Assembly (NCBI GenBank): GCA_023128935.1
Contig: JAGMDA010000864.1
Coordinates: 1 to 39,644 of the forward strand
Reading direction: 5' to 3'
Length of the DNA stretch: 39,644 nucleotides
Source: Candidatus Eiseniibacteriota bacterium
GTDB taxonomy: Bacteria; Eisenbacteria; RBG-16-71-46; CAIMUX01; WJJG01
This document shows positions 14,014 through 39,644 of this stretch, in pieces (position 1 is the stretch's first letter; the number at the start of each line of letters is the position of its first letter). Under the pieces are notes generated by a model. It saw only the letters and a program-made list of their open reading frames with translations. It did not search any database and was not told the DNA's origin. A program made the translations under genes and the position numbers.

Positions 14014-14858
14014 ATGCACTGGTCGCCGAGGCATTCGCAGACGAGCTGGAGAAGATCTCGGCCGTCCCGCTATCCTTGATGGGGCGTGTGGGTAGGGCCG
14101 TTTGGAATCGAGGTGCTGGCCGGGTGGCTGTCGGGGCTGCTCCTGGGGCTGCCGTCGGATACGCCGCGGCTCCAGAAGATCAGCGTGTTCAAGGAGCTAT
14201 ACTTGGTGGGGCCGTCGGCGCGGCGGGGGGATTTGCTTCACCGCTTGCCACGCGCGCTGGGCGCAAGGCGTTCGGGGAGTGGGGGCGGCGCGCTGTCCAA
14301 TCTCAGAAGCACCAGCTCCTTGGTAAGGGCAACATGCCTATCAAGCCGGGTGCTTCTGCCGAGGAGATCGCCAAGGTTACTGCGGCTCAAAAGGCCGGCC
14401 TCACCAGCATCCCAGGTCTCGCAAAGGGTATGTATAGGAGGCCGGGGGGGACGCTGCGTGAAGCTTGGCGTCATGCGGGCAAGATGGGTAAGGTCATGGC
14501 AGTTGGTGATGTGGCTCTGGGCGCCCGGGCCGTAGCAGATCCAACGACGGAGGCTGGCATCGGCGAGAAGGCTTTGGGTACCGTTGGTACCGCCGGTGGT
14601 TATCTACTTGCTAGCCGACTAGGATTTGTCCCATCGATGCTGGTGGGCGGCGGTCTTGGTAAGCTCACCGGCATGGCTGGTCGTGGCGTCGACGTGCTAA
14701 CTGGCGAACGCGGGCGGAAGCTCAAGCGCAAGACCAAGAAAAAAACGGAGGAAGCGATCGGGTTAGCCAGGCGCCCCTCAACCCAGTACTTGACTGAGCA
14801 CGCGCTGCGAGCGATTCCTGAGCAGGCCCGACAGGTAGTACCTGGAGGGGTCACATGA
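14010..14858 (+). CDS. Gly/Ala-rich protein with an N-terminal ELEKxxA motif
   Basis: A 282-residue protein of unknown family. Seen: an N-terminal helix EAFADELEKISAV, then alternating Gly/Ala-rich hydrophobic stretches (VAVGAAPGAAVGYAAA; GAILGGAVGAAGG; TVGTAGGYLLASRLGF) between basic, hydrophilic segments, and a very basic stretch near residue 235 (KLKRKTKKKTEE). The hydrophobic parts could insert in membranes, as in some internal or ejected virion proteins, but are Gly-rich and uncertain. A shorter protein at 30125 shares the N-terminal motif and composition and may be a paralogue. It overlaps its neighbours by 4 bases on both sides (ATGA), directly before the portal gene. Confidence 0.75.
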   Translation: MNALVAEAFADELEKISAVPLSLMGRVGRAVWNRGAGRVAVGAAPGAAVGYAAAPEDQRVQGAILGGAVGAAGGFASPLATRAGRKAFGEWGRRAVQSQKHQLLGKGNMPIKPGASAEEIAKVTAAQKAGLTSIPGLAKGMYRRPGGTLREAWRHAGKMGKVMAVGDVALGARAVADPTTEAGIGEKALGTVGTAGGYLLASRLGFVPSMLVGGGLGKLTGMAGRGVDVLTGERGRKLKRKTKKKTEEAIGLARRPSTQYLTEHALRAIPEQARQVVPGGVT

Positions 14859-17800
14859 CGATGGATTTCAGTCCCACCGGAGCGGCCCGTTTCGCACGTA
14901 CCAAAGGGCGTGTGGGGGGATCGGGTGAGCGCGGGATCAGCTATCCGTCTCCCTTCTTTGACATAGGCCACACGTACCTGCCGACCACTGTCAAACAAAT
15001 GTTCCGGTGGTGCCGCTATTACTTCATGGTCCACCCCCTGATCAACTCCGTGGTCTTCAAGATGAGCCAGTATCCGATCACAGATCTGGTCTACAATACG
15101 AAGGACGAGCATCAGAAGACCTTGTGGAAGGGGTTCATGGAGGACCACCTCCGCTACCGCTCGTTCATGCTGGACGGCGGGCTCGACTACCACGCTTATG
15201 GTAACCTCTTGGTGTCGATCTTCTTCCCGTTCAAGAAGATGTTGTCCTGCACGGCCTGCAATTATAGTCAGCCAGTCAAGGACAGCCGCTACTACTTCCG
15301 CAACTTCGAGTTCTATTGGGAGTGCCCGAAGTGCGGGCATCATGCCCCGGCGAAAGTCAGCGATCAATACATCAAGTCGGCCAGGGGCATCCGGCTCCTC
15401 CGTTGGAACCCCGAGGATGTGGACATCCGCTACAACGATCTGAATGGTGAGTACGCCTACTACTACGAAATTCCTGTCCAGCTCAAGAACGACATCATCA
15501 TGGGCAAGAAACATGTTGTGGAGGACGTGCCGCAGGTCTTCATAGATGCCCTGCGTAAACGCAAGGCCGTGGTGTTTTCGAAAGACAACATCTTCCATTT
15601 CAAGCGCCCGACACTCGCTGGCAAGGACCGTGGGTGGGGCATGCCGTTGCTGCTGCCGGTGCTGAAAGACGCATTCTATCTTCAGATTCTAAAAAAGAGC
15701 CAAGAAGCCATTGCGCTCGGTAATATCGTCCCACTACGTATTCTGTTCCCACAAAGTGGGTCAGCGACCTCAGATCCATACTGCCTATCATTTCGCACAC
15801 TTACGGAAGCCAACCTTGGTTACACGGAGGCGGGCAAGGTAAAAGTTGGTGATCTTGTCAAGACCTTTAGTGGTCGCTACCAACCAGTTACAGTGATCAA
15901 TCGTAGGCGTGTGCGACCGGATGAAAAGGTCTACCGGATCAATATTTGTGGGATGTCGGCAGCTCCAATAGAGCCTTCGGAAGATCATCCCCTTTTTGCC
16001 GTCCGGACTGATGGGCAGAGAAAGGGCTTGATCAAGGATTGGACACCCGATTGGATCGCCGTGAGAGATCTACAAGTTGGGGACTACGTTGCCTACCCCC
16101 TGACGCGGGAGGTCAAAAGTGATCTCCGGGTGGACATCTCTCATTATCGGCGGGGCCATCGAACTTCCCAGATCCCTCGATACCTATCCTGGTCCAAGCA
16201 TCTTGCTACGATCGTCGGATATTATCTTGCAGAGGGTAGTGGAGGGGATCACATTACCTTTTCGTTGAATCGTAGTGGGGGGTGGATCTGTGATGAGTTG
16301 GATGCGGCGTTCATGGCAGTGTTGGGCAAAAAAGGGCATAGAAGGCCCAGAGGTGAGAATGGACTCCAATATGAGATCAACGATTCGATCTTTGGTGAGT
16401 TCCTCCAAAGCTTCTTAGGTCTAGCTCCCAACAAACGGCTACCGAAGGAGGTAGTTTACCTCCCCGAGGAAATCCTCCTGGAGTTGGTGCGTTGTTTGAT
16501 CAATGGAGATGGTGGGGGCGAGCAGTGCTACCGGGATAACGGCACCGGTTGTCCATGTAGGACTTCTGGCATCACGCTCACCAGTACATCTAGAGATTTA
16601 GCATTCAAGTTGCGCGAGCTATTGTTGTACTTGCGCATTATTGGTCGCATACATACCGTCCCAGGTACTGAAGACAGGCTCCCGATTTACCGTGTGAAGA
16701 TCGATGGGGCTGACGCAGTAGAATTGTGGGGCCGCTTTGGGTGGGATGTCCCTGCTCCTCCAATAAAGCAGGACACAACTCGATCTTTCATCCGCGGAGA
16801 CTACGCCTTCTTTCGCGTACAGAAGAAAGTGGAGATCCACGACGTCGACTTCGTCTATGGTTTCCAGGTGGATGGAGATAAGAGCTTCTGTGTTCCCGCA
16901 TGCGCGACCCACAACACTTCGATCAATCTTGGCGAATGGAAGGACGACATCCAGGAGCAGATCGCTCGTTGGAGAAGCGACCAAAATTATATTCCGATCT
17001 TGCCGCTCCCCGTCGGCAACCAGACCATCGGTGGCGACGGCCGAGCCCTACTCTTGGGTCAGGAGATCCGAATTTGGAGTGAGCACATTGTCACCGGCAT
17101 GGGTGTCCCGCAAGAGCTCATTTTCGGTGGGGTTTCTTTCAGCGGTTCAAATGTTTCGCTACGCATGCTCGAGAACATCTTCCTCGGCTACATGACCGAT
17201 CACGGGCTCCTCATGAACTGGGTGGTCCAACGGGTTGCTTCCTACATGGATTGGGAGCCGATGTCGATCAAGTACAAGCCGTTCAAGATGGCGGACGATC
17301 TGCAGCGGAAGGCCTATAACTTCCAGCTCAATCAGGCCGGCAAGATCTCGGACGGCACGCTGCTCGAGGACGCCGACTTCGATCCGGATAAGGAGGACAA
17401 GAAGATTTTGGGTGAGACCGACAAGCGCGCGGAAGCCCAAACCAAAGCCCAGCTCGCCCAGGCCGAGATTCAAGGCAAGGCCCAGATGGTGATGATGCGC
17501 TACCAGATCAAGTCCCAGAAAGAGCAGCAACAGATGCTGGGTGCGGCCCCAATGCCCGGTGAGCCCGGGGCTGAGGCCGGGGGTATTCAACCAGGGCAAG
17601 CGCAGGCACAGCCGATGGAAGCACAGGCTCAGCAACAGCAACCGCCATTGCCGCAACAACAGCAACCCCCCATGATGGCAACCCAGCCGCCCCAGCAGGC
17701 CCAGCCAGAGCTTCCACCAGCCATGGGGGCCATGAGATCCCCGCTCAACCAAACCCAGCAGACCCCGGAGGGCGCAGCCAATGTTGACCTGCTCTATCAG

Positions 17801-18010
17801 GCTCAGCAAGTGGCCCAACAGCTGGTCCAAATGGATGAGAATAGTCGGCTGATGGCGCTCATGAATCTGCGGCAGCAGAGTCCGGAGTTCTATCAGGTGG
17901 TCCTCGGTATATTGCAGCAGCTAATAAGTGGTGGTGGCCCAGAGCCCGCTGCAGAGCCGTTGCCTGAGCAACGACCGCCGCAGCGGGCCGCCGGGTCCTC
18001 CTTGATTTAA
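14855..18010 (+). CDS. Portal protein with zinc ribbon, interrupted by an intein
   Basis: Probable portal vertex protein, which forms the dodecameric DNA channel and docks terminase; 1051 residues before and about 673 after intein removal. Seen: N-terminal region with WCRYYFMVHPLINSVV; a four-Cys zinc ribbon at C132, C135, C157 and C160, not usual in portals; KKSQEAIALGNIVPLRIL, then after the intein GMGVPQELIFGG and NVSLRMLENIFLGY, which match the portal wing/stem pattern of a 'G(V/M)P' loop followed by a long helix; a helical Gln/Ala/Lys segment; and a long Pro/Gln-rich tail (about residues 890-970). It begins in an ATGA overlap with the previous gene and its stop shares bases with the convergent gene at 18007. 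The assignment is by pattern and context, not by a catalytic motif. Confidence 0.7.
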   Translation: MTMDFSPTGAARFARTKGRVGGSGERGISYPSPFFDIGHTYLPTTVKQMFRWCRYYFMVHPLINSVVFKMSQYPITDLVYNTKDEHQKTLWKGFMEDHLRYRSFMLDGGLDYHAYGNLLVSIFFPFKKMLSCTACNYSQPVKDSRYYFRNFEFYWECPKCGHHAPAKVSDQYIKSARGIRLLRWNPEDVDIRYNDLNGEYAYYYEIPVQLKNDIIMGKKHVVEDVPQVFIDALRKRKAVVFSKDNIFHFKRPTLAGKDRGWGMPLLLPVLKDAFYLQILKKSQEAIALGNIVPLRILFPQSGSATSDPYCLSFRTLTEANLGYTEAGKVKVGDLVKTFSGRYQPVTVINRRRVRPDEKVYRINICGMSAAPIEPSEDHPLFAVRTDGQRKGLIKDWTPDWIAVRDLQVGDYVAYPLTREVKSDLRVDISHYRRGHRTSQIPRYLSWSKHLATIVGYYLAEGSGGDHITFSLNRSGGWICDELDAAFMAVLGKKGHRRPRGENGLQYEINDSIFGEFLQSFLGLAPNKRLPKEVVYLPEEILLELVRCLINGDGGGEQCYRDNGTGCPCRTSGITLTSTSRDLAFKLRELLLYLRIIGRIHTVPGTEDRLPIYRVKIDGADAVELWGRFGWDVPAPPIKQDTTRSFIRGDYAFFRVQKKVEIHDVDFVYGFQVDGDKSFCVPACATHNTSINLGEWKDDIQEQIARWRSDQNYIPILPLPVGNQTIGGDGRALLLGQEIRIWSEHIVTGMGVPQELIFGGVSFSGSNVSLRMLENIFLGYMTDHGLLMNWVVQRVASYMDWEPMSIKYKPFKMADDLQRKAYNFQLNQAGKISDGTLLEDADFDPDKEDKKILGETDKRAEAQTKAQLAQAEIQGKAQMVMMRYQIKSQKEQQQMLGAAPMPGEPGAEAGGIQPGQAQAQPMEAQAQQQQPPLPQQQQPPMMATQPPQQAQPELPPAMGAMRSPLNQTQQTPEGAANVDLLYQAQQVAQQLVQMDENSRLMALMNLRQQSPEFYQVVLGILQQLISGGGPEPAAEPLPEQRPPQRAAGSSLI
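15782..16915 (+). mobile_element. Intein with LAGLIDADG endonuclease in the portal gene
   Basis: A 378-residue intein from CLSFRTLTEANLGY to CATHN, followed by Thr. Seen: Cys1, a GKVKVGDLVKTF segment typical of the intein N-terminal domain, block B PSEDHPLF, LAGLIDADG helices VGYYLAEGS and CLINGDGGG with both acidic residues present, and block G ATHN. The endonuclease may be active. Flanks rejoin as SDPY-TSINLGEWKDD. The exact C1 boundary relies on the intein pattern because portal sequences are poorly conserved here. Confidence 0.88.
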
Positions 18011-18558
18011 CTCACTCCCTGAGCATAAGTCTTTCGTGGTACCCGTCTGATGGGTCTCCTCTTCATGATCTCCGGCACATCCTTCTCCTCGATCCAATCA
18101 CGTTGATCGGGCAAAGGTGGTAAGCCAACACGCTTCCTGAATGTGTGGATGTTGCCCTCTCCCAATATGTGTTCCATACACTCCCAGCAACACCAGAGCC
18201 GTGCAGCCCGCCCCCCCTGTCCATGCATGCGCCAGCGTCTGATCTTCCCAATGAACTCCCCTAGCTCCAGCTCCCAGCAGCGCTCTTCTCCTACCAGATC
18301 TTCCGGGCAAAACGCACAGTCGTCTGGTCCGTCCTGCTTCTCGGCGTCTGCGAAATCAAAACCAATCGTCATCATGCAGTGGAAGCAGAACAGCCTGACG
18401 ATCTTGCCATTGTAGATCTTCGGGTGGAAGTAGAAGCCGCCATGCTTTTCGCTCTTCCTGATTTGCCCGGCCCGAAGAACAATGATGTCGCGGTCGTCTT
18501 CTAACTCCACACCGCAGATCTCACAACGATAAATCTTATCTCCGTCCACATCGGTCAT
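18007..18558 (-). CDS. Cys-rich putative zinc-binding protein, antisense to the late arm
   Basis: A 183-residue protein of unknown function with at least four CxxC-type pairs: CEIC near residue 12, CFHC near 58, CAFC near 81, and a CCWEC cluster near 118. The spacing suggests two zinc ribbons or HNH/FYVE-like zinc knuckles, but no catalytic motif is visible. The C-terminus is basic (MKRRPIRRVPRK). It is one of only two minus-strand genes in the right arm, and its stop codon overlaps the portal stop on the opposite strand by two bases. A ribosome binding site, AGAGGGG, precedes the ATG. A regulator of the adjacent polymerase gene is possible, without direct evidence. Confidence 0.75.
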   Translation of the reverse strand: MTDVDGDKIYRCEICGVELEDDRDIIVLRAGQIRKSEKHGGFYFHPKIYNGKIVRLFCFHCMMTIGFDFADAEKQDGPDDCAFCPEDLVGEERCWELELGEFIGKIRRWRMHGQGGRAARLWCCWECMEHILGEGNIHTFRKRVGLPPLPDQRDWIEEKDVPEIMKRRPIRRVPRKTYAQGVS

Positions 18559-18644
18559 TAGCCCCTCTTAACCTCTTTACAGCAAACCTCCCGTGCTCCA
18601 ATACCCCCTCCAATAATTGCCATAGGAAGAACCAGCGGAAGATC

Positions 18645-18788
18645 TCAAGCACTGTCATCCTTTTCGGTATCCTCCTCCTTCTTCTCATCATCCCCTTCAT
18701 CTTCTTGCTGATCATCCTCGCTGTTAGGATCAAGGGTATCCTGCAGCCAGTCCTCAGCGTCCTGTAAATTGGAGCGTGATTCACACAT
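18645..18788 (-). CDS. Very acidic 47-residue peptide
   Basis: A short ORF starting MCESRSNLQDAEDWLQ and ending EKDDSA. Twenty-one of 47 residues are Asp or Glu against four Lys/Arg. A good ribosome binding site, GGAGG, lies 5 bases before the ATG. It is in one orientation with the zinc-type gene 86 bases downstream and sits head to head with the RNA polymerase gene. Small acidic phage proteins are often DNA mimics or polymerase-binding inhibitors; that role is speculation here. Another reading frame is open across the same region, but it lacks a ribosome binding site and has an improbable composition. Confidence 0.5.
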   Translation of the reverse strand: MCESRSNLQDAEDWLQDTLDPNSEDDQQEDEGDDEKKEEDTEKDDSA

Positions 18789-18809
18789 AGGAGCCTCCAG
18801 CGTCTTAGG

Positions 18810-18841
18810 GTTTTTGATTGCCTTATCACCACTCTTATATC
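18810..18841 (+). promoter_or_regulatory. Candidate promoter upstream of the RNA polymerase gene
   Basis: GTTTTTGATT (18810-18819) repeats exactly the 10-mer found at 10516. It contains TTGATT, followed 16 bases later by TATATC (18836-18841), a weak sigma-70-like pair. It lies in the 165-base gap between the head-to-head start of the acidic peptide and the polymerase ATG. It could serve either direction or be bound by a phage factor. Confidence 0.35.
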
Positions 18842-18953
18842 AACGATCTCCACAATTTTGTGGGTGCCTTCTTACGTATTGAATGGCGAAGAACCTATTT
18901 TGACTCCGCCTTACAAGCTCTGGTACGCTACGCCCAAACATAGGAGCCCAATA

Positions 18954-21900
18954 ATGGCACGACTGGCACCCGAAGAAGGCTTCGCCGCCGTGAAGTCTAG
19001 GGTGACAGAGGCTGTGCAAGAGCTTTTCCCGATCAAGGGCAATAAGCACACCCTCCGTCTAGATGATATAGAAGTCAAAGACAACAAGGATATCGAGGAC
19101 CTCCGCTCGCAGAAGAAGGCCAAGCTGGAGGGCCGCACGTGGGCTGTGCCAGTGAACGCCAACCTGGCGTTGGTCGATAACACCACAGGCAAAGTGATCG
19201 ACCGCAAGAAGAAGCGGATCATGAGCCTGCCGAAAGTGACCAATAGGCACTCCTACATCGTCGATGGCGACGAGTACCAGATGGACAACCAGTGGCAGCT
19301 CAAGCCCGGTGTCTACAGTAGGCGGAATGATCAGGGCGAACTCGAATCGATGTTCAATCTCAAGGGCCGCTCTGCCTTCAAGGTGCAGTTCGATCCGAAG
19401 ACCCAAAAGTTCGCGATGAAAAAGGACAGCTCCCACATCCCGTTGTACCCGATCATGCGGGAGATGGGGGTGAGCGATGAGGAGCTTAAGAAGTCCTGGG
19501 GCTCCCAGATCTTTGAGGCCAACAAGATCAAGAGCGAGGCCGCGATCTCCAGGTTCCACCGGGCTGTGACCAAGGAGAAAGGGGCGGACCCGGAGGCCGC
19601 CAAGGAGTTCCTGCACCGTTTTATGGACGGCGCCAAGATGGACCCGGATGTTGCTCGTCTGACTCTGGGGGACGCGCACGATACGGTCGGCGGTAAAACC
19701 ATGAGGCTGGCCAGCGAGAAGCTCCTGGGTATCAGTCGCGGGGACGTCAAGGCTGATGCTCGAGACAGCCTGATGTTCAAGAACTTCCGATCGGTTGAGG
19801 ACTTCGCGGCCGAGAGTATCAAGGACCGGAGCAAGGAGATCTTCCGGCGCATTGGCAACAACCTGGACCGTAAGAGTGACCTGCATGAAATTGTGAGCGC
19901 CGACATTCTCAACCGGCCAATCCATACGATGATCTCCAAGGCCACCTTGAGTAACCGGCCGAGCCAAACGAACCCGTTGGAGATGCTCTCGGGTGCAATG
20001 AAGACCACGATCATGGGGGAGGGCGGGATCAAAAGTGAGCACAAGATCACGGAGGACGCCAAGCTCATCGATCCCAGCCACCTGGGCTTCCTGGACCCTA
20101 TACACAGCCCAGAAGGGCCGAAAACAGGTGTCACACTGCATCTGCCGTTGGGAGCAACGAAGAAAGGTAACAAGGTCATGGTGAAGATGTGGAACACCAA
20201 GACCAAGAAGATGGAAGATGTTGATCCGGAGAAAGCGTACAACTCCAACATCGTGTTGCCAGATCAGGTGAAGTGGAAAGACGGGAAGCCTGTTCCTTTG
20301 CACGCGAAGCTCAAGATGAGCGGGTCCGAGAATGATGTGGTGGAGGGTGATCTGAAGCAGGCTGATTATGTCATGGCGTCGTCAGCACAGTTGTTCTCGG
20401 TCGCCTCCAACATGATCCCGTTTATGCAGAACGACAGTGGCAATCGCTCCACCATGGCCGGCCGACACATGGAGCAGGCGATTCCCTTGAAGCACAGGGA
20501 AGCCCCACTTGTTCAGACTGTTATCCAACAGGGACAACGCAGCAGCTCCCTCAACGACTTCATGGGGCGGGTCAACAGTCATCACGCCCCCGTAACAGGA
20601 GAGGTTGTCCAGATCAAGAAGGATGGGATTGTGGTCAAGGGCGCGGACGGAAAGAAGAAGGAAGTCCAGACCTATGATCACTTCCCGCTCAACGACGACA
20701 AAGGTTTCATCCACAGTACCCCGATCGTCAAGGTTGGGGACAAGGTGAAGAAGGGCCAGACCGTCTCCGATACAAATTTTACGAAGGGCGGTAAGCTGGC
20801 CCTCGGGGTCAACCTGCGATCGGCTTATGTTCCGTTTCACGGTTACAATTTTGAAGACGGAACTGTGATCAGTGAGACCGGTGCTAAAAAATTGACGTCG
20901 GAACATATGCACCGTAAGGGACTCGACACCAGTCGAGAGCATACGTTGAACAAGGAGAAGTTCCTGGCGTACGAGGCGGCAAACATTACGAAGGAGCAGG
21001 CGGAGAAACTGGATGACGGCGCCGTGATCAAGAAAGGGCAGAAGGTCAAGCCCGGGGACATCCTGGTGGGTGCGTTGAGAAAGCGGGAGGAGACGGACGA
21101 GGCGAAGATCAAGGCGCGCATGCACAAGGTGCTGGTCAAGCCGTACGACAACGTCTCTGTCACGTGGGGGGCCGATCACCCGGGGGTTGTGGCGAACGTG
21201 GTCAAGCGAGGTCGTCGAACAGAGGTGCACGTTCGCACGGAAGAGCCGGCGGAGGTCGGGGACAAGCTTTGTTTCACTGAGGACACAGAGGTATTGACCA
21301 AGGACGGCTGGAAATGTGTCGCCGACATCACGCTCAACGACGTATGCTATACGATTAAAGGTGATCTAATTGAGCTTCAAGAAGTAGCAGAGACGCACCA
21401 CTACCCGGTTGCTGGAGAGCTGTATGAACTAGCTTCTCAGCAAGTTGATCTGAGAGTGAGCTCCAATCACAGCCTGTACGTGAAGCTCAGAGATCGTAAT
21501 GAGTTTGCGCTTGTCGTTGCGCGAGATGTGATCGGCAAACGGGTACGTCATAGGAAGAATGGTGTGTGGTTGGCAGACACGCCCACCGAATTTATTCTTC
21601 CTCGCGTAGAAGCCAAGGAGTATGGGAAGGGCGCGCATAAACAACAGAGCGCGGCATCCAGATTCTCTTCAATACCGATCAGACCCTGGTTGACTTTCCT
21701 GGGTATTTATTTAGCCAACGGCTATTACACGATCCGGGAAAGAAAAGATCGCCCGGGGTCTATTGAGTACCGTACGATCATTTGCACCGTAGAGGGGCAG
21801 CAGCATTCTGTATCTAGAGATCGGTACAGTTGGATTTGCGGTGTTCTGGATGAGTGTGGTTTTCACTACATAAGGAGAGACGACGGGCTGATCATAAGTT

Positions 21901-24900
21901 CCAAGCAATTGGCCATATACGTTTCTCAATTCGGCCATGCCAAAGACAAGTTCATCCCTCGCGAATGCTTTACCTGGGGGAACAACGCGGCACGTTGGCT
22001 TTTGGAGGGTCTTACGGGCTGCGACGGTTCCGAGTTTTCCAGTCTATCTTACACAACGATTTCACATCAACTTGCTGACGACGTGCAACAGCTGGCTCTG
22101 CATCGTGGGTGGGCCGCGAACATCAAACAGCGGCAACCCAGCAACCCAAAATGGTCGCTGCGTTACGACGTCAGAATGGTCCGATCAAAATGTGAGCCGC
22201 AGATCAATCATGGTCACGCCGGCACACAGCATGCACAGAGTGAGCGATTGTATCACTCTGATGAGCCTGTGATCGGGATTACCGTGCCGAACGGCACACT
22301 ATACGTTCGAGTGAATGGTAAGACAGTTTGGACGGGTAACTCAGGTCGCCACGGCAACAAGGCGATCATTGTCAAGGTCGTTCCAGATCATGAGATGCCT
22401 CAGACCAAGGATGGCAAGCCCACCGAGATCTTGTTGAACCCCCTAGGAATCGGGGGTCGCTTGAACCTTGGCCAGGTGTTAGAGACCTCGGCGGCCAAGA
22501 TCGCGGAGAAAACGGGTAAGACTTACAACACTCAGAACTTCGACGGAACCGAGGACGTAACGGCGAAGGTGATGAAAGAGTTGAAGGCCGCGGGTATAGA
22601 GGACAAGGAAGAGCTGATCGATTCGAAGACCGGGAAGTCCATGGGGAAAGCGTTGGTGGGGCCGCAATACGTGCACAAGCTTGAGCACCAGGTCAGCAAG
22701 AAGCTGGTGGCTCGTGCTGGTGGCCCCGGGTATGCCTACGACGCCAATCGAATCCCCAAGGGTGGCGGACCTCATGGTGCCCAGGCGCTCGACGCTCTCG
22801 GCGTGTATGCCCTTCTCGCACATGGAAGCAAGGCCAACTTGCGAGATATGCAGACTTATAAGAGCGACGCCGGCAACAACGACACGCTCTGGGCCGCGAT
22901 CCAAAGTGGGAGTCCGCTTCCTCCTCCCAGGCCGACGTTTGCGTACGAGAAGTTCAGCGGGATGATGCGCACTATGGGCGTGAACATGACGAAGCAGGGC
23001 AACAGCTTGAACCTCTTGCCCCTGACCGACAAGCAAACGCGCGACATGAGCAACGGCGCGCTCAAGGACGCGGGCAAGATGGTGTTGGGCAAGAACTTGA
23101 AGGAGGAGAAAGGGGGGATCTTCGATAAGCAGGTGACGGGTGGACTCAACGGGACCAAGTGGGGCCATATTGAGCTGCCCGAGAGCATGCCGAATCCGGT
23201 GTTTGAGAAGAGCATTGTTGCGCTCACGGGTATGAAGAAGAAGGACTTCTCGGAGTTGATGGCCGGGACCAAAGCGATCGATCCAAAGACCGGCAAGTGG
23301 GTAGATCCAGAGAATGGGATCTCCTGTGGTAAGGCCGTGTCGCATCTGCTGAAAAAGATCGACGTGAAGAAGGAGCTGGCGTCCTCGTTGAAGGAGCTTG
23401 AGAAGCCCAGTCTCAAGGGTGCGCGGTTGGACGGCGTGAACAAGAAGGTCAAGTATCTGCAGTCGCTGGACAAGCTTGGTATGAGTCCGACTGAGGCGTA
23501 CATGCAGAAGACCATTGCTGTGATGCCGCCGTCCATGAGACCACTGGCAGTTCGCCCCAGCGGCGATCTGATCAGCGATGATCTCAACGGCATGTACAAG
23601 GGTATAGGCACAGCCGTGCTGAAGCTCAAGAACGCCAACCCATTGCTGCCGGACGACATGCTCAACAATCGGCGGGAGGCCTTGTACGACGGGATGAAAA
23701 GCCTGGCGGGGCTTGGCGGCCATCTCAACCGGGAGTACCGGGGGGTCCTTGACATCATTCACGGGAAGTCGTTGATCAAAGACACCAAGGGAGAGAAGGG
23801 TGGGAGCCCGCGCGAAGGGTTCTTCCAATCGAAGTTGATCAAGCGCAAGCAAGACTTGAGCATGCGTTCAACTATTATCCCGGAGCCAGAGCTTGGGCTG
23901 GACGAGGTGGGGATCCCAAAGAAGGCGGCGATGGAGATCTACAAGCCGTTTATTGTCAAGGAGCTGCGCGGCATGACCGGGATGACCCCATTGGCTGCGC
24001 GAAAGGCTGTAGAGGGAGGCGACGCCCTGGCCGGCCGTGCGCTCGAACGTGTGATAGATCAACGTCCTGTTCTCCTGAAGCGTGATCCGGTTCTCCACAA
24101 GTATGGGATACAGGCGTTCAAGCCCCAGATCGTTAGTGGCAAGACCGTGAAGATCCATCCGTTGGTGACATCAGGATTCGGAGCTGACTTCGACGGGGAT
24201 GATCAAATAAATACAGTGGTTACATGTATTCCTTGTGAGCTATACAACTCTGATATAAGGTGGGAATATCGGAGGTGTGAAATGAGCGCAAGGTTCAAAG
24301 AGGCGATAGGGTATGTCCGGGAAGACTCTGGGGGCGTTTTTGTAATCTGTAACCTGGAGGACTTCCCGCGCGAAAAGAAGATCAAGACCAAGGGCCACAT
24401 CGATTTCTGGTCCGTCCCTGCCGGCGTGAAAGTCGTAGCGCTGGATGAAAAGACGAACATGCCTGTGCTGGCCGACGTTTCGTGCTGGTCTCTGCACAGG
24501 GCGCGGAAGGTAGAGATCATAGAGTTGGGGAGCGGGAGACAGATCGTCACGGATGATGATGAGCGTGCGGTTTATGGTGTGGACGCCTCTTCGCTTCAGT
24601 GGTGTCGTCGTCGTCCGTCGGAAGCCGCCAATCAGTTCGTACCCGTTCTCGACGAGGCCCCCCAGTTCGAGCCGATTAAGAATGATCTCTCACTGCCGAG
24701 CGATCCCCGTCTTCTTGACAAAGCCGTATTGGACGAGAGGTTCGGCTACTTCCTGGGTGCGTTGGTAGGAGATGGGTGGGCGGCGCATGCCTACGGTGAC
24801 CCCAAGTCCATCAACTTTTCCTCAAGCTATGATGAGGTGTGTGATGCGTGGTCCCAATCCTTGTTGTCCATGTTCAAGGAGATGCCTACGATCACAGATA

Positions 24901-27900
24901 CGTGGCTGGAGAAGGATAAGCTAGAAGGGTCTGGTGGATCTGGGCGGCTCACCGTTGCCTGTACAGCAGCTGCCGAGTTCCTTGTTCCGATCATCGGTCA
25001 TGGGGCTCAGAACAAGCACCTGCCTCCCTTTTTTGTTTCCGCCCCTCTTCCTTTTCTGAAAGGTTTGATGGCCGGCCTGATCGACACTGACGGCTCTATG
25101 TCCTGGTCTTCCGGTAAGGACAAACCACAGTTCATGTGCGGCTATCAGTCTTCCAGTCTCCGGCTCCTTCAAGAGATCCAACATGCCTTGCGCATGATCG
25201 ATATTTCAGCCAGCATCACTCCATCCAAGACACCCAAGGGAAAGCCGTTCTGGGCACTGACTATTTCAACGGTCGATCTCTTCAAATTCGGTGGGTTCCC
25301 GGTTCATCACGCGAAGAAGAAGGCTTTGCAGCAAAAGTTTCTTACGGGTCCTGCGCCCAACAATCGTATGGCCTACAGTCGTTATAGGTTAATTCCGCTT
25401 CCCTCAGCTCTTGCAAAAGAACTCCGAACTATTATTGGATTCAAAGAGCATCGGGGCTTGTACAGCACGGTGTCTTATGCTGTTAGTCGCCAATACGTTT
25501 CTAAGGAAACGGCAAAGATCGCAGTCAAGATGGTGGGAGAGCGCTGCACACACCCGCTATATCAGAGATGGAAAGATCTTGTCTTGGAAGAGAGCTTTCA
25601 CTTCGAGCGTGTAAAAGACTTTACCACCACTGAGATTGAGGAGGATGGTTACGATCTTACGGTGCCGGGCTACGAGACGTTCATGTCGTTGGATGGAGTG
25701 ATCTTGTCTAACACCATGAGCGCGTTCGTCCCCTTGTCGACCGAGGCGGTGGAAGAGGCGAAGAAGATGTATCCCAGCCGTAATCTTTTTAGCCCGGCGT
25801 CCGGCAAGATCATGTACGCGCCGACACATGAGAGCCAGCTTGGCATCCACATGTTGACCCAGAAGGGCAAGGACGTGAACAAGGCGTTCAAGACCCAGGC
25901 GGACGCGGCGAAAGCTGCGGAGGCCGGCAAGATCGGTATGACCGACGTGGTGAAAATAGGCGATCGCCGCACCACCATGGGTAGGACACTGGTGGCGCAG
26001 GCGTTACCGGAGAAGATGCGGGCGGACGTGTTGTCAGGCAAGAGCGACCTGGATGGTAATGGTCAGCAAGAGATGTTGTCGAGGTTGGCGAAAGATCACA
26101 AGAACGATTATGGTGACTCAGTCAACAGGATCAAAGACTTGGGCAACACGTTCGTCACAAGCGCCGGTGTCTCCATCGGGCTGGAAGATCTGAAGGTGGA
26201 CAAGACTGCTCGTACTCGTATCTTGAAGGCGGCTGACGCCAAGGCCGCACTAATCATGAAGGGCGGCGGCACGAAAGAGGAGAAGCAGAAGAAGACGGTG
26301 CAGATCTACGACAAGGCCACGTCCTCCATGATCGGCGCTATTGAGAGGACTCATGGTGTCAAGGGCAAGATGCTGCACAAGATGATGAAGGCCGGGGTCA
26401 AGCCGGGCATGGCGGCCTATCGGCAGATCACGATGGCGCCGATGCTGATGATGAACGCCAAGGGTGAAGTCATCCCGACCCCGGTCAGGAAGTCTTACTC
26501 TGAGGGGTTGGATGTAGGAGACTACTGGACGTCCATGTCCGGCGCGCGCAAGGGCGTGATCCAGAAGGTTCAGTCGGTGCAGGAGCCGGGTTATCTGACG
26601 AAGCAGGTGATGAACTCGACGATGAACAACTCGATCGGCGCGCCTGATTGTGGCACGGCCAAGGGCATTAGCTTGCCGATCGATGAAAGGGACATCCTCG
26701 ATCGGTATTTGGCTTCCGACATCAAATCCGGTCGCAAGGTGTTCAAGGCCGGGACTCTCATCACCCCGGGTGTCAGGGACAGCCTCCGGAACAACCGGGT
26801 GGGTAAGGCCGTGGTGAGATCTCCTCTACGTTGCGAGCATGAAACAGGCATCTGCTCGAAATCCATGTATTCGGCAACAAGCGTGGAAGTAAGAAACCCC
26901 TCGGGCGTTGAGTATCATACCCGATTATCGGATCTCTTTGATGTAATTGATAAAGAGACTGAACTGAGAGAAGGGGTAGAGATTAAACATTGCTCTGGAT
27001 GGGGTATTCGAGACGACGTAGGTTGGACTAATTTGGAACATGTGTTGCGTCACCCTCGAGAATATTTTAAAAGGCTCCTTGAAATACAAACCACTTTTGG
27101 GACTTCACAAATTGTGACTGAGGATCATACGGTTATAGTAGAACGGCCAACTATGTGTGACTGTGGGTGTCTGCGCATTTTTGTAGATAGTCGAAGTCCA
27201 GAAGATAGATGTTATTTGAAATGCCGGTCGTGTAATAAGCGTTGGACTATTAATCGAGTTGATTGGGAGCTCGGAGAGGAATTGGAAGTTCAAGCGCAAG
27301 AGGTTCTGCCTGGCGATAGGATTAAAGTTCCTTGTGTTTTGGTGCGGTCGGGAGCAGACTCAGACATCGATCCCTACTTCTTAGGAATTTATTTAGCTGA
27401 GGGCTCTACAGACCGTACGTCTGGTAACCCTCGTAAGGTGTTTATAGCACAGCTTGATAATCGGTGGAGGTCGAAGATGATATCTCATTGTCATCGAGTA
27501 ACCTTAAATAAAGTGAGTGTTGTAAAAACCGGAATATCAATAAGTGATACTTTTCTCGTACAGGAACTTGTTAATGTATTAGGTTCTCTTAGCACAGCTG
27601 CTGATAAAAAATTGGGACGGTGCTGGTGCGGGTATTCTAATGCTTATATGGCGTCTATTTTATCTGGTTTAATTGATGGGGATGGCCACATTCGTGAACG
27701 CGATAATGGTTCAAATGAGGCGTCCGTGGGCTCTACTTCTTACATATTGCTCGTGCAAATGCAAACTTGGTTACGGAAAATAGGGACTAGGGCAGCATTA
27801 CTTTGTCGTACACAAAAGCCGTCAGGGGTTATAAAAAGCAGAAAGGACTTCTTTCACCTTACATTCTCAATTGGTGAAGAGCTTAGTAAACTTCTTAAGG

Positions 27901-30113
27901 ACTGTCAAAAAGCTCAAGGGATACGGCCAATACAGGGAGGGGGAAAGTATGACCTCAAAAAGAACTATGCGGTGGTCTTGAAAATCAGAGATGTATCAGA
28001 TAAGATTCAATCAGAATGGGTCTACGATACCAGAACTTTCTCACGCCGTTTCTTAGCCAATGGAATGCTTACACATAATTGTTTCGGGTTAGATGAAGAT
28101 GGGCAGAACCCGCCAGTTGGACGGAACGTGGGGGTTATCAGTGCTCAAGCTATTGGGGAGCGCGCTACTCAACTTGCCATGCAATCCTTTCATTGTTTAC
28201 ATGAACATTCCATCGTGTTGATCAAGAAGGGTAATGAGATTCTGCACACGACTCTAGGAAGAATTTACCAAGACGGAAAGTTGGATGGAGCCCAGGTATG
28301 GGATATTGGCGGATGGACTGACGTGGAGTCTGTTGATCGCCACATCCAACACCCTGGTACTGCCATGGTCATGGTTAGATCTCGTAGCGGCTTCAGTTCC
28401 GTTAGCCAAGACAACCATCCTCATATGCTGAGGGAGAATGAGGCTTACTGCCCCGACTGTTCTACGATTCCCAAAAAGATGAAGGGTGGCTATCACTGTA
28501 GGAAATGTGGGCGTCCTTGGAAAGGGGAGATCGTGGATGACGCTCCAACGATGATGGTTTCTCCTCAAGAAATAGATCATCTTTCTCATCGAGCGACGTT
28601 GGATTTGGGTCCCGCATCGACTGTTCAGCGGCCAATATTACAGGATGGTTGGCTGGCCGGGATCTACTGTGCGGAGGGTTATGGTTGTGTCGCTGTCCGA
28701 GATCAAAATGGGGGACCCTACGTGACGGGGATAGGGATCAGTCAAAAACAGGGCGAGATCTATGAGAAGATCGCCACCGCTCTAGAGCGCGAGGTTGGAA
28801 AATGTGCACGGGGACTGCGCGGCCCTCGCGTTTATTCTAAGGAGATGGGCAACAAATTTATGTCCTGTTTTGGGCGTTACTCTTCGAACGTCGGCCTCCC
28901 TCCTGGGTGGAGTGGGTACCCAAGAGAGTGGCTATTGGATTTTGTTGCGGCTTTTATTGATGGGGATGTAACCACTAGAGCGCGTAAGGAGAGCCGCTGG
29001 TGCTCAGTTTGTATAGACACGACGAGTTATTTAGCAGCTCAGCAAATACATTGGATCTTACGGCGCGAGGGGATTCAAGCGCATGTGCTGCTTTCATCGT
29101 GGCGTGAAGCCAGTCTCCATCAAGGGATTCAAGTTACTGCTACGATCACCGAGGAGTTGAAAGAGCTATTACCTGGCGTGAAAAAACTTGATGTCCCTGG
29201 AAAACCGTCTTATTCGGCCGAAGGGTTCTCTGACGTTGTAAGTTACATCAAACCATTTAGGTTCAGTTCCCCTCCCTATGTATATGATGTCAAGACACGA
29301 TCGGGCACGTTTTTCGTAGACGGGCTACTGACTCATAATTCTGGAGGGGTTGCGCCGGTTGGCCGTGTCGGTAGGCAGAAGGCGGTGATCACCGACGAGT
29401 TCAACCGGGTACAACAGCTGGTACAGATGTACGCGAAGATCCCGGGGAGTGCCACGCTATCAACTGTTGGAGGTAAGATCTCGAAGGTGCAGAAAGATCC
29501 GGCGGGTGGGCACAACGTGTTTGTTGGAAGCACTCGTCACTACGTGCCCCAAAACAGGGGGGAGCCGTTGGTTTCGATCGGCAACAAGACCAAGAAGTTG
29601 AAAGCTGGTATGCAGATTCAACGGGGCACGCCGTTGTCAGCGGGGCCGATCAACCCGAACGAGTTGTTACCACTCGCCGGCATCAACAAGGTTCAGGGGT
29701 ATCTCACGGGCGAGCTCTATGGGTTGTACAAGGGGCAGGGAATCCGCCGCCGCAATATTGAGACGGTGGTCAAGAGCATGACCAACCTGACGAAGGTCAG
29801 CGACCCAGGAGATCACTCGGAGTTCATTCGGGGAGACTTCGCCCCGACATCCAAGGTCCAGGCGCTGAACAAGAGGTTGGTGGCCAAGAAAAGGAAACCG
29901 ATCAGCCATCGACCGGTTCTCAAGGGTGTCAAGACCTTACCTCTCGACATCCAGACCGATTGGGTGGCAAGATTAAATCACGAGAAACTTGGTGCTACCA
30001 TCATCGACGCGGCGAACCAGGGGTGGTCCTCTGACATCCACGCGGTGCATCCGATCCCCGCCCTTGTCTATGGAGCTGAGTTTGGTAAGGGTAAAAAGCC
30101 GGGGAAATATTAA
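18954..30113 (+). CDS. Fused beta-beta' RNA polymerase, interrupted by four inteins
   Basis: A 3719-residue precursor, about 2070 residues after removal of 1649 intein residues, combining the two catalytic subunits of a bacterial-type RNA polymerase in one chain. Beta signatures: HLGFLDPIHSPEGPKTG (near 20080-20130), PFMQNDSGNRSTMAGR, HGYNFEDGTVISE (about 20840-20875), GDKL+SGRHGNK, and GGPHGAQALDALGVYALLAHG at the beta C-terminus. Beta' signatures: GGIFDK and GHIELPE, DFDGD metal loop (24186-24200), TMSAFVPLSTEA, DCGT plus CEHETGICSKCFG zinc site, and NVGVISAQAIGE with QLAMQSFH of the trigger loop. The first beta' zinc finger seems absent, and the chain is shorter than host beta plus beta' (about 2750). 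Start: ATG 18954 with TAGGAG 7 bases upstream; in-frame TTG 18858 lacks one. No alpha, omega or sigma gene is in the window. It is encoded among virion genes. Confidence 0.93.
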   Translation: MARLAPEEGFAAVKSRVTEAVQELFPIKGNKHTLRLDDIEVKDNKDIEDLRSQKKAKLEGRTWAVPVNANLALVDNTTGKVIDRKKKRIMSLPKVTNRHSYIVDGDEYQMDNQWQLKPGVYSRRNDQGELESMFNLKGRSAFKVQFDPKTQKFAMKKDSSHIPLYPIMREMGVSDEELKKSWGSQIFEANKIKSEAAISRFHRAVTKEKGADPEAAKEFLHRFMDGAKMDPDVARLTLGDAHDTVGGKTMRLASEKLLGISRGDVKADARDSLMFKNFRSVEDFAAESIKDRSKEIFRRIGNNLDRKSDLHEIVSADILNRPIHTMISKATLSNRPSQTNPLEMLSGAMKTTIMGEGGIKSEHKITEDAKLIDPSHLGFLDPIHSPEGPKTGVTLHLPLGATKKGNKVMVKMWNTKTKKMEDVDPEKAYNSNIVLPDQVKWKDGKPVPLHAKLKMSGSENDVVEGDLKQADYVMASSAQLFSVASNMIPFMQNDSGNRSTMAGRHMEQAIPLKHREAPLVQTVIQQGQRSSSLNDFMGRVNSHHAPVTGEVVQIKKDGIVVKGADGKKKEVQTYDHFPLNDDKGFIHSTPIVKVGDKVKKGQTVSDTNFTKGGKLALGVNLRSAYVPFHGYNFEDGTVISETGAKKLTSEHMHRKGLDTSREHTLNKEKFLAYEAANITKEQAEKLDDGAVIKKGQKVKPGDILVGALRKREETDEAKIKARMHKVLVKPYDNVSVTWGADHPGVVANVVKRGRRTEVHVRTEEPAEVGDKLCFTEDTEVLTKDGWKCVADITLNDVCYTIKGDLIELQEVAETHHYPVAGELYELASQQVDLRVSSNHSLYVKLRDRNEFALVVARDVIGKRVRHRKNGVWLADTPTEFILPRVEAKEYGKGAHKQQSAASRFSSIPIRPWLTFLGIYLANGYYTIRERKDRPGSIEYRTIICTVEGQQHSVSRDRYSWICGVLDECGFHYIRRDDGLIISSKQLAIYVSQFGHAKDKFIPRECFTWGNNAARWLLEGLTGCDGSEFSSLSYTTISHQLADDVQQLALHRGWAANIKQRQPSNPKWSLRYDVRMVRSKCEPQINHGHAGTQHAQSERLYHSDEPVIGITVPNGTLYVRVNGKTVWTGNSGRHGNKAIIVKVVPDHEMPQTKDGKPTEILLNPLGIGGRLNLGQVLETSAAKIAEKTGKTYNTQNFDGTEDVTAKVMKELKAAGIEDKEELIDSKTGKSMGKALVGPQYVHKLEHQVSKKLVARAGGPGYAYDANRIPKGGGPHGAQALDALGVYALLAHGSKANLRDMQTYKSDAGNNDTLWAAIQSGSPLPPPRPTFAYEKFSGMMRTMGVNMTKQGNSLNLLPLTDKQTRDMSNGALKDAGKMVLGKNLKEEKGGIFDKQVTGGLNGTKWGHIELPESMPNPVFEKSIVALTGMKKKDFSELMAGTKAIDPKTGKWVDPENGISCGKAVSHLLKKIDVKKELASSLKELEKPSLKGARLDGVNKKVKYLQSLDKLGMSPTEAYMQKTIAVMPPSMRPLAVRPSGDLISDDLNGMYKGIGTAVLKLKNANPLLPDDMLNNRREALYDGMKSLAGLGGHLNREYRGVLDIIHGKSLIKDTKGEKGGSPREGFFQSKLIKRKQDLSMRSTIIPEPELGLDEVGIPKKAAMEIYKPFIVKELRGMTGMTPLAARKAVEGGDALAGRALERVIDQRPVLLKRDPVLHKYGIQAFKPQIVSGKTVKIHPLVTSGFGADFDGDDQINTVVTCIPCELYNSDIRWEYRRCEMSARFKEAIGYVREDSGGVFVICNLEDFPREKKIKTKGHIDFWSVPAGVKVVALDEKTNMPVLADVSCWSLHRARKVEIIELGSGRQIVTDDDERAVYGVDASSLQWCRRRPSEAANQFVPVLDEAPQFEPIKNDLSLPSDPRLLDKAVLDERFGYFLGALVGDGWAAHAYGDPKSINFSSSYDEVCDAWSQSLLSMFKEMPTITDTWLEKDKLEGSGGSGRLTVACTAAAEFLVPIIGHGAQNKHLPPFFVSAPLPFLKGLMAGLIDTDGSMSWSSGKDKPQFMCGYQSSSLRLLQEIQHALRMIDISASITPSKTPKGKPFWALTISTVDLFKFGGFPVHHAKKKALQQKFLTGPAPNNRMAYSRYRLIPLPSALAKELRTIIGFKEHRGLYSTVSYAVSRQYVSKETAKIAVKMVGERCTHPLYQRWKDLVLEESFHFERVKDFTTTEIEEDGYDLTVPGYETFMSLDGVILSNTMSAFVPLSTEAVEEAKKMYPSRNLFSPASGKIMYAPTHESQLGIHMLTQKGKDVNKAFKTQADAAKAAEAGKIGMTDVVKIGDRRTTMGRTLVAQALPEKMRADVLSGKSDLDGNGQQEMLSRLAKDHKNDYGDSVNRIKDLGNTFVTSAGVSIGLEDLKVDKTARTRILKAADAKAALIMKGGGTKEEKQKKTVQIYDKATSSMIGAIERTHGVKGKMLHKMMKAGVKPGMAAYRQITMAPMLMMNAKGEVIPTPVRKSYSEGLDVGDYWTSMSGARKGVIQKVQSVQEPGYLTKQVMNSTMNNSIGAPDCGTAKGISLPIDERDILDRYLASDIKSGRKVFKAGTLITPGVRDSLRNNRVGKAVVRSPLRCEHETGICSKSMYSATSVEVRNPSGVEYHTRLSDLFDVIDKETELREGVEIKHCSGWGIRDDVGWTNLEHVLRHPREYFKRLLEIQTTFGTSQIVTEDHTVIVERPTMCDCGCLRIFVDSRSPEDRCYLKCRSCNKRWTINRVDWELGEELEVQAQEVLPGDRIKVPCVLVRSGADSDIDPYFLGIYLAEGSTDRTSGNPRKVFIAQLDNRWRSKMISHCHRVTLNKVSVVKTGISISDTFLVQELVNVLGSLSTAADKKLGRCWCGYSNAYMASILSGLIDGDGHIRERDNGSNEASVGSTSYILLVQMQTWLRKIGTRAALLCRTQKPSGVIKSRKDFFHLTFSIGEELSKLLKDCQKAQGIRPIQGGGKYDLKKNYAVVLKIRDVSDKIQSEWVYDTRTFSRRFLANGMLTHNCFGLDEDGQNPPVGRNVGVISAQAIGERATQLAMQSFHCLHEHSIVLIKKGNEILHTTLGRIYQDGKLDGAQVWDIGGWTDVESVDRHIQHPGTAMVMVRSRSGFSSVSQDNHPHMLRENEAYCPDCSTIPKKMKGGYHCRKCGRPWKGEIVDDAPTMMVSPQEIDHLSHRATLDLGPASTVQRPILQDGWLAGIYCAEGYGCVAVRDQNGGPYVTGIGISQKQGEIYEKIATALEREVGKCARGLRGPRVYSKEMGNKFMSCFGRYSSNVGLPPGWSGYPREWLLDFVAAFIDGDVTTRARKESRWCSVCIDTTSYLAAQQIHWILRREGIQAHVLLSSWREASLHQGIQVTATITEELKELLPGVKKLDVPGKPSYSAEGFSDVVSYIKPFRFSSPPYVYDVKTRSGTFFVDGLLTHNSGGVAPVGRVGRQKAVITDEFNRVQQLVQMYAKIPGSATLSTVGGKISKVQKDPAGGHNVFVGSTRHYVPQNRGEPLVSIGNKTKKLKAGMQIQRGTPLSAGPINPNELLPLAGINKVQGYLTGELYGLYKGQGIRRRNIETVVKSMTNLTKVSDPGDHSEFIRGDFAPTSKVQALNKRLVAKKRKPISHRPVLKGVKTLPLDIQTDWVARLNHEKLGATIIDAANQGWSSDIHAVHPIPALVYGAEFGKGKKPGKY
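21270..22340 (+). mobile_element. RNA polymerase intein 1, between the beta active-site lysines
   Basis: A 357-residue intein from CFTEDTEVLTKDGWK to TVWTGN, followed by Ser. It separates GDKL from SGRHGNK, the beta segment whose two lysines (E. coli K1065 and K1073) contact the incoming nucleotide. Block B is SSNHS with Ser at the usual Thr position; the penultimate residue is Gly rather than His. LAGLIDADG helices are LGIYLANGYY and LEGLTGCDGS; the first carries Asn where an acid is expected, so homing activity is doubtful. Confidence 0.92.
24201..25712 (+). mobile_element. RNA polymerase intein 2, directly after the DFDGD metal loop, atypical N-terminus
   Basis: A 504-residue insertion ending VPGYETFMSLDGVILSN before Thr. 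Aligning the flanks (GADFDGD and TMSAFVPL) to bacterial beta' NADFDGDQMAVHVPL puts the first inserted residue at Asp (DQINTVVTCIPC), not the usual Cys, Ser or Ala. The candidate block B is IVTDDDERAV, lacking the usual His. The C-terminal half is standard (YDLTVPG, SN, +1 Thr). LAGLIDADG helices LGALVGDGW and MAGLIDTDGS keep both acids, so the endonuclease looks intact. The first 60 residues resemble no intein N-terminus I know. Confidence 0.85.
26862..28079 (+). mobile_element. RNA polymerase intein 3, inside the second beta' zinc site
   Basis: A 406-residue intein from SMYSATSVEVRNPSG to MLTHN, followed by Cys. Removal gives CEHETGICSK-CFGLDEDG, matching the bacterial beta' zinc site 2, so the +1 Cys is also a zinc ligand. 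Block B TEDHTV, block F WVYDTRT and both LAGLIDADG helices (LGIYLAEGS, LSGLIDGDGH) are intact. An extra Cys cluster, resembling a zinc ribbon, occupies 27156-27233. The DNA is visibly richer in A and T than the surrounding polymerase gene, suggesting recent arrival. Confidence 0.93.
28194..29339 (+). mobile_element. RNA polymerase intein 4, directly after the trigger-loop histidine
   Basis: A 382-residue intein from CLHEHSIVLIKKG to GLLTHN, followed by Ser. The flanks rejoin as AMQSFH-SGGVAP, equivalent to bacterial TMRTFHxGG, where the His (E. coli beta' H936) is the trigger-loop residue next to the nucleotide. Block B is QDNHPHM, block F is YVYDVKTRSG. LAGLIDADG helices LAGIYCAEGY and VAAFIDGDV keep their acids. 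A CxxC...CxxC ribbon lies at 28449-28508. Confidence 0.93.
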
Positions 30114-39100: not shown

Positions 39101-39644
39101 TGCTTAACACCACGCAAGTCCACTCCGGGAGGCTTTAGGCCCACCTGCATAAAGATGTCACAAAGAGAGTCTGTGAACCCAAAGCAGGCGGCTAAAATAA
39201 AGTTTTGTATGGATCGAATGGAGATACCGTACTCTGAGTTTCCTAATCACAAGACGGGTGACCTCAATTGGACTATCTGCGGAAAACAATTCTGGCATTG
39301 GTTTGATGTGAATGTGGGGCGGCTGGGTGCTCAAAAAAGGGTCCCTAGAGAATTTTTATCTCTTTCTAAAAGGCAGCTACGGATTCTATTTGATGCCATG
39401 GTACTTGGGGACGGCTCCATAGATCGACGTGCGAATTGTACAGGTGGCTCCTACTCCTCTACCTCAAAGGGTCTGTGTGAAGACTTCCAGGAGCTCTGTA
39501 TACGACTTGGGTTACGCGGTGTTGTGAGACTATTTGCACCGGCGGAGGGCAATCGCAAGGCCCGGTGGAGAGTAAATTGGTCTCGAGGACGAGATTTTTA
39601 TTACAATACGCCCAAGCAACGTATAGAAACATGCCCTTACAACG
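36128..39644 (+). CDS. Terminase large subunit with two inteins, truncated by the window edge
   Basis: ATP-driven DNA packaging motor and nuclease. The reading frame is open from 36128 to the window end. Seen: ARQVEK at 36470-36487, completed after splicing by STTLGNK to form the RQxxK(S/T) Walker A of phage terminases; FVAPSAEQAKVF; Walker B LLCVDE at about 38026-38043; coupling motif YSGTPKS; a Cys/His pair cluster CEHH...CDAC (about 38203-38302), not usual in T4 gp17; and the first nuclease-domain motif GIDWG at 38639-38653, where the second intein begins. The rest of the nuclease lies outside the window. The start is GTG 36128 (TTG 36131 also possible); an upstream stop at 36110 limits the choice and no strong ribosome binding site is present. 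Confidence 0.88.
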   Translation, partial: MLINLAKARAAQAERRVKISYAGQEVDGKVREPIYDRDDLGNLRDYGFDIEPRDPTDEEFAASPDYCYNVSPSEFAETAILIADKGDTRKFTFAERPYLKRIYDTGARQTLLKAARQVEKSVTISTICRTKSGSPVAAGDVAVGDELATMSVDGCTMTSGRVSWVSKRYSKPCVRLTSRQGHQTIVALTHPMRVWSAWLAAGDLSLSDRLAVVRQCGEFVGTLSLPYERVILTAYLIGDGHIGRSISLTGLPGPVVNEFIEISESLGFGIKEYPKRDTKAIDVRLNNCSQLRNWLREDGLLGTRSRTKFLPSWVYDLDKSTTSLFLNRLWATDGHVKQCNRSLYSLEYCSTSKRLIAEVQALLWKFGIPSRIRRNWPSYWKKQGIKKYAWILRIETQEGVKIFLAEIASLGKSEDVDPPDSDSRNNRDTFPIEVNDLIRDIVSSRGNKGRFGRGADKSKSLRTFGLRETLLYPPTFEKVQCYVDFFRSDYRYDQSLVDELDKHLITDLYWDRLVGIEDVGEQECVDFAVEGTENFVGDGFITHNSTTLGNKMIAYSCLNNHFRSLFVAPSAEQAKVFSNDRVADVINMSPLVGAYTNTVLTNAVFHKKFINYSQIRLRYAYLTADRVRGIAADLLCVDEIQDILVDNLPVIEECASHSNWKLFIYSGTPKSLDNTIEHYWANFSTQNEWVVPCEHHGTPKSPNSWHWNILDEDNIGKTGLVCDACGKPINPYHPQAQWASLQPQTRKNQDKVVFEGYRIPQLMVPWILNDPEGWAGILQKQERYGRQKFYNEVLGISYDSGTRPITRGQLKACCKENVRLADYEQYKRYAETTDIFAGIDWGCHDDQTRILTQDGWKHFQDLTDDDQVAQWDPETRVMSLVLPEVRTVREWDGPLHHFETRGGLDMMLTGTHRMRVKGRDARWATECADQTVQRKGGVQFVGYVDWEGEELETFTLPGLPKSPGYPGCDPRTYRMDDWLEFLGYVLTEGGVCLTPRKSTPGGFRPTCIKMSQRESVNPKQAAKIKFCMDRMEIPYSEFPNHKTGDLNWTICGKQFWHWFDVNVGRLGAQKRVPREFLSLSKRQLRILFDAMVLGDGSIDRRANCTGGSYSSTSKGLCEDFQELCIRLGLRGVVRLFAPAEGNRKARWRVNWSRGRDFYYNTPKQRIETCPYN
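36488..37759 (+). mobile_element. Terminase intein 1, inside the Walker A P-loop
   Basis: A 424-residue intein starting with Ser (SVTISTICRTKSGS) and ending GFITHN, followed by Ser. Removal gives ARQVEK-STTLG. Block B is ALTHPMRVW, with His but a shifted Thr; block F is CVDFAVEGTENF. LAGLIDADG helices LTAYLIGDGH and LNRLWATDGH keep both acids, so homing may be active. A/T-rich codons contrast with the flanking terminase sequence. Confidence 0.92.
38654..39644 (+). mobile_element. Terminase intein 2, at the nuclease active site, partial
   Basis: At least 330 residues of an intein starting CHDDQTRILTQDGWK immediately after GIDWG, whose Asp is the expected first metal ligand of the terminase nuclease. 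Block B TGTHRMRV and LAGLIDADG helices LGYVLTEGG and FDAMVLGDGS are present with their acids. Its C-terminal splice junction is beyond the window. Confidence 0.9.

Follow-up and report, generated by a model that had tools for sequence, protein, structure and literature searches.

Our study identified, in a 39,644 nt stretch of tailed-phage DNA (referred to here as the window), a gene for an RNA polymerase whose beta and beta' subunits are fused in one chain. This chain seems to have been invaded independently by four homing inteins at essential motifs, so that four splicing events would be needed to complete it, with intein 2 leaving by a Thr+1 attack. We place the probability of this reading at roughly three in four. 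The gene represents an extreme natural intein load, as each of the four inserts sits within an essential motif of a single enzyme chain.

A fused RNA polymerase chain interrupted at its active centre

The open reading frame extends from 18858 to 30113 without any stop, with a TTG start at its outer end. The ATG at 18954 is the likely start codon, being preceded closely by AGGAG and coinciding with the conserved start region of related chains (MARLxPEEGF). The precursor matched RpoB, RpoC and natural bacterial beta-beta' fusion models, together with LAGLIDADG and intein models, which confirms an earlier claim, made from the sequence alone, of four inteins in one RNA polymerase chain. Excision of the four inserts (357, 504, 406 and 382 aa) leaves a single fused beta-beta' chain of 2070 aa from the ATG, or 2102 aa from the TTG, and fused chains in this family typically measure ~2020-2250 aa. 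The gene is laid out as follows, with a slash marking the position of each splice junction here and below.

18954..30113, + strand: fused beta-beta' RNA polymerase precursor gene, 3719 aa from the ATG
18954..21269, + strand: extein 1, beta, ending at GDKL
21270..22340, + strand: intein 1, 357 aa, C1 ... GN/S, SSNH in block B; beta M1066/A1067
22341..24200, + strand: extein 2, remaining beta, the fusion joint and beta' as far as GADFDGD
24201..25712, + strand: intein 2, 504 aa, D1, TDDDERAVYG replacing TxxH, YDLTV in block F, SN/T; beta' D464/Q465
25713..26861, + strand: extein 3, beta' from TMSAF to GICSK
26862..28079, + strand: intein 3, 406 aa, S1, TEDH, THN/C; beta' H897/C898
28080..28193, + strand: extein 4, just 38 aa, from zinc Cys C898 to trigger-loop His H936
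28194..29339, + strand: intein 4, 382 aa, C1, QDNH, THN/S; beta' H936/I937
29340..30113, + strand: extein 5, remaining beta'

Alignment of the exteins to RpoB and RpoC of E. coli MG1655 and to 56 intein-free phage relatives placed all four insertion points exactly, to the residue, where the original prediction had put them. Junction 1 lies between K1065 and K1073 of beta, junction 2 immediately past the last Asp of NADFDGD in beta', junction 3 directly before C898, which is the +1 residue, and junction 4 directly after H936. The intein-free phage homologues, which share 40-75% identity in beta, align without gaps over all four junctions. We take beta K1065 and K1073 to be nucleotide contacts in bacterial RNA polymerase, beta' D460, D462 and D464 to bind the catalytic magnesium, C898 to be among the four residues that coordinate the zinc of site 2, and H936 to be the trigger-loop His. 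C898 has two roles on this assignment, as a zinc ligand and as the +1 nucleophile position of intein 3, and only 38 extein residues separate inteins 3 and 4.

Since the four inteins occupy nucleotide-contacting, metal-binding, zinc-binding and trigger-loop sites, polymerase activity is not expected of the unspliced chain. These positions support the earlier suggestion that the polymerase is inactive until splicing, which we regard as very probable, and an active centre would exist only after four splicing events. The same expectation was already voiced for RNA polymerase inteins in 2006 (PMC1635734).

Intein occupancy across the polymerase family

Searches of viral contigs yielded 75 non-identical full-length fused chains including that of the window. 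In the window, the spliced chain joins both subunits in one frame with the catalytic motifs, and xADFDGD was found as the first match in 55 of 56 intein-free homologues. These 56 intein-free chains out of 75 include the close window relatives L005, L009 and L015; in searches that did not select for inteins, RNA polymerase inteins were present in 8 of 64 non-identical full-length relatives. The family as a whole displays at least eight insertion points (after DPIHTPE(G), GDKL, GRHGNKGIVT, LREMQTLK, NADFDGD and GICxK, near QLAMK, and at FH), each occupied independently of the others. On the extein tree, which is undated, occupancy shifts between close neighbours: L039 has no intein, and next to it stand L100 with inteins at sites 3 and 4, and L012 with four, three of them at window sites and one elsewhere. 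The window's sister, L003/L004, harbours an intein at site 2 alone, and this belongs to a different clade from the window's own. The same tree shows inteins in L085, L087 and L191 and none in L098 and L101. The +1 residue is Cys, Ser or Thr in every intein-bearing copy examined; at sites 1 and 2, intein-free copies frequently show Ala or Val instead.

Inteins 1, 3 and 4 start with C, S and C, respectively, carry the block-B His (SSNH, TEDH and QDNH, the Thr of TxxH being Ser or Gln in two of them) and end in a C-terminal Asn followed by a Cys or Ser at +1 (GN/S, HN/C and HN/S). They thus carry the features expected of class 1 (Cys or Ser at residue 1, block-B His, C-terminal Asn and Cys, Ser or Thr at +1), and their splicing is predicted on this basis. 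LAGLIDADG motifs are present in all four inteins, with matches to Pfam LAGLIDADG_3, and look intact in three of the four. This arrangement, a Hint fold with an inserted LAGLIDADG endonuclease, is that of homing inteins, and cutting of the intein-free allele by the endonucleases is likewise predicted. The first motif of intein 1 reads LGIYLANG, and because Asn replaces the acid there this endonuclease may be inactive. Inteins 3 (CxC...CxxC) and 4 (CxxC...CxxC) have a Cys-rich insert resembling a zinc ribbon, placed between block B and the endonuclease, as do their alleles in L012, L100 and L076.

Calculated for the inteins alone, with no extein value as a control, dN/dS between allelic inteins was 0.04 at sites 3 and 4 (L012 and L100) and 0.12 in clade i of site 2. 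Strong coding constraint, LAGLIDADG motifs and patchy occupancy, taken together, point most readily to homing elements with conserved target sites. In addition, the shifts in occupancy between sisters and the presence of different clades at one site are the signature of mobile elements and not of a conserved switch. The pattern suggests that homing elements have repeatedly invaded the best-conserved sites. Four homing inteins would have entered one polymerase chain independently, at its most conserved and essential motifs, and we infer, as for splicing itself, that homing, more than any role as a switch, is what maintains them.

The original prediction had gone further and proposed that the order and timing of splicing could gate transcription. 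Under such a model, slow or conditional splicing, responding to redox state, zinc or temperature, would time the onset of phage transcription. All four intein positions are essential, inteins 3 and 4 bear the zinc-ribbon-like inserts described above, and two inteins of a single DnaB, whose rates are very different, have been reported to splice conditionally (PMC6195587). However, the sites are patchily and independently occupied, occupancy varies even among closely related polymerases, most full-length relatives (close ones among them) have no intein, and the LAGLIDADG motifs are accompanied by five further inteins within 39.6 kb. The gate is accordingly quite unlikely and this part of the prediction found no support.

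Eukaryotic RNA polymerase inteins show the same preference for highly conserved sites, and splicing before enzyme assembly has been argued for them (Goodwin et al., PMC1635734). The inteins of archaeal (rPol A' and A'') and eukaryotic (RPA2, RPB2 and RPC2) polymerases covered by that study resemble those of the window in lying at conserved sites round the active centre, but are one per gene, whereas the window has four in one phage chain, among them those at a zinc Cys and at the trigger-loop His. Essential genes with several homing inteins also include those for the four-site haloarchaeal MCM (PMC10643990) and, as cited in PMC1635734, for the four-intein ribonucleotide reductase of Trichodesmium; these are other host proteins, whereas the window sites span both large RNA polymerase subunits.

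Among isolated phages, Salmonella phage Arash and Vibrio phages D69, D148 and D181 have a related fused RNA polymerase chain (28-35% identity), although theirs stops within beta' and has no inteins at the sites covered. In D69 and D181 (L023 and L024) beta' is split, its C-terminal part forming a separate 610-aa gene, and in D181 a free-standing homing endonuclease gene splits the beta region. A deep-branching polymerase of multi-subunit type is also carried by tailed phages of the mReC group (Weinheimer and Aylward 2020, PMC7481178), likened here by description; in the window, by contrast, beta and beta' form one chain, and PMC7481178 makes no mention of inteins.

A non-canonical intein at the catalytic aspartates

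The N terminus of intein 2 is non-canonical, with Asp directly after GADFDGD in place of the Cys or Ser of class 1. A Cys at precursor residue 1790 (TTG numbering) was rejected as an alternative start, as it is not conserved and would add eight residues to the catalytic loop. The predicted structure (pLDDT 79.6) has a Hint plus LAGLIDADG fold and matches the TliVMA intein with its endonuclease (E 6e-20), and also I-DmoI. A PDB sequence search with intein 2 gave no meaningful match, and tblastn against annotated phages gave one weak match, to an uncultured 485-kb phage.

Intein 2 belongs to a group of ~19 phage inteins at site 2 (clade iii), in which residue 1 is D, Q, A, E, L, F, K or Y, and once Cys. 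Here the near-universal block-B His is replaced within the motif TDDDERA or TDDDPRA, block F reads GYDLTVP with Asp at F:4, and all 13 closed members end LSN/T, with Thr always at +1. A homology search returned L184, L185, L186, L190 and L198, and the others came from a TDDD pattern; as 12 of the 18 aligned members derive from this TDDD-containing pattern alone, the invariance of TDDD is partly by construction, and the motif is independent of the search pattern in the window and the five homology-found members. Because homology-found and pattern-found relatives form a clade sharing its odd features, these are not a local defect of intein 2.

The tree of site-2 inteins splits into three clades, with support of 1.0 for the core of clade i, 1.0 for clade ii and 0.78 for clade iii; L187 and L199 branch outside the core. 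Clade i has an ordinary N terminus (Ser or Cys at residue 1, SxDH) and a C-terminal Asp (VWD/T or VWD/C). Clade ii (NADFDGN/C ... VWD/T), like clade iii, has no block-B His. Splicing-competent inteins with a C-terminal Asp are known, according to work cited in PMC4031507. In clade ii (L004/L041, L082 and L206), whose inteins end in Asp, the third catalytic Asp is Asn; normal splicing would put Asn at the position of Asp464, where intein-free relatives have Asp. The occurrence of inteins with and without an N-terminal nucleophile and block-B His at one extein position makes a change of class in evolution testable in this family.

Intein 2 was further compared with the known splicing classes. 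A class 3 mechanism was rejected, since every closed member carries Asp at F:4 (GYDLTV) and not the Cys of the WCT motif, and so was a hidden internal nucleophile, as no Ser or Cys is conserved within the first 60 residues. The class 2 (KlbA-type) inteins (PMC4031507) come closest, sharing with the intein 2 clade the absence of a residue-1 nucleophile (D1 in the window), Ser at G:6 (LSN/T), Asp at F:4 and Thr at B:7. However, the intein 2 clade has Thr rather than Cys at +1 in every closed member and Asp rather than His at B:10, lies outside KlbA, and varies at residue 1 (D, Q, A, E and others), which is not always Ala.

We consider that intein 2 probably uses a class-2-like direct attack by Thr+1. 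In this mechanism, Thr+1 would attack the bond between the catalytic Asp464 and residue 1 directly, assisted by Thr B:7, Asp B:10 and Asp F:4, after which the Ser-Asn end of the intein would cyclise, giving the spliced junction GADFDGD-TMSAF (peptide GADFDGDTMSAF). Neither the N-terminal nucleophile nor the block-B His, each of which had been held nearly indispensable, has been retained in this clade. No known class 2 intein has Thr at +1 and none lacks His B:10 (PMC4031507), so that intein 2 might splice poorly or be limited to cleavage.

In the extreme case the N terminus of intein 2 would be splicing-dead and only C-terminal cleavage would occur, leaving the polymerase as two polypeptides or non-functional. 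Intein 2 does have neither a residue-1 nucleophile nor a His at B:10, and split chains do occur, as D69 and D181 divide beta' at another point. Yet cleavage there would sever the catalytic barrel right after Asp464, and the ~19 divergent members of clade iii have kept an open frame, with SN/T wherever the end is seen and Thr following the intein in all closed members. Moreover, in the clade iii pair L190 and L228 dN/dS, again of the inteins alone, was 0.145 across the whole intein and 0.124 in the N-terminal splicing part, low values which argue against decay and for retained splicing of intein 2. A splicing-dead N terminus is therefore unlikely.

Direct attack by Thr+1 thus remains our preferred mechanism for intein 2. 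The wider proposal is that this clade is a new splicing variant, with no N-terminal or block-F nucleophile and no block-B His, but with a directly attacking Thr+1 and Asp at B:10, which arose in phages among otherwise class 1 site-2 inteins; we hold the case for it to be evenly balanced. Titles and abstracts yielded no class 2 inteins other than those of KlbA, and no paper joining inteins with NADFDGD was found in the literature, although with most subscription journals outside both searches this is weak evidence of absence. Clade iii may provide inteins that need no N-terminal Cys or Ser.

The phage contig and its further inteins

The window is a tailed-phage contig with genes for primase, DnaB helicase, a further helicase, portal, baseplate and large terminase. 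It was binned in a fragmented draft bacterial genome, as contig 850 of 872. The RpoB Rpb2_6 domain had no further match in the draft bin, which implies that the bin's own bacterial rpoB is missing and that the phage contig may be misbinned. Beyond the polymerase gene, the window contains five further inteins, as follows.

3049-4167, - strand: DnaB intein
8892-9332, - strand: mini-intein of an SF2-type helicase, without endonuclease, at the DE/CHH motif
15782-16915, + strand: portal intein
36488-37759, + strand: terminase (TerL) intein
38654-39643, + strand: second terminase (TerL) intein, partial, truncated where the contig ends

Several of these likewise lie inside ATPase or nuclease motifs. 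The total of eight complete inteins and one partial intein within 39.6 kb greatly exceeds the three that are given as the per-genome maximum for the intein-rich crAss-like phages (PMC7886860).

Given a draft bin in 872 fragments, and with all four polymerase inteins found together in no sister contig, the inserts could be assembly artefacts or the pseudogene remnants of a dead phage. This is scarcely credible, however, as the 11.2-kb frame stays open and stop-free and every one of the four sites holds a homologous intein in independently assembled contigs. The polymerase gene adjoins the portal gene both in the window (14855-30113) and in phage Arash (L022), as if co-expressed with virion genes. 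Judged by gene content and order, it is possible that the polymerase is carried in the virion.
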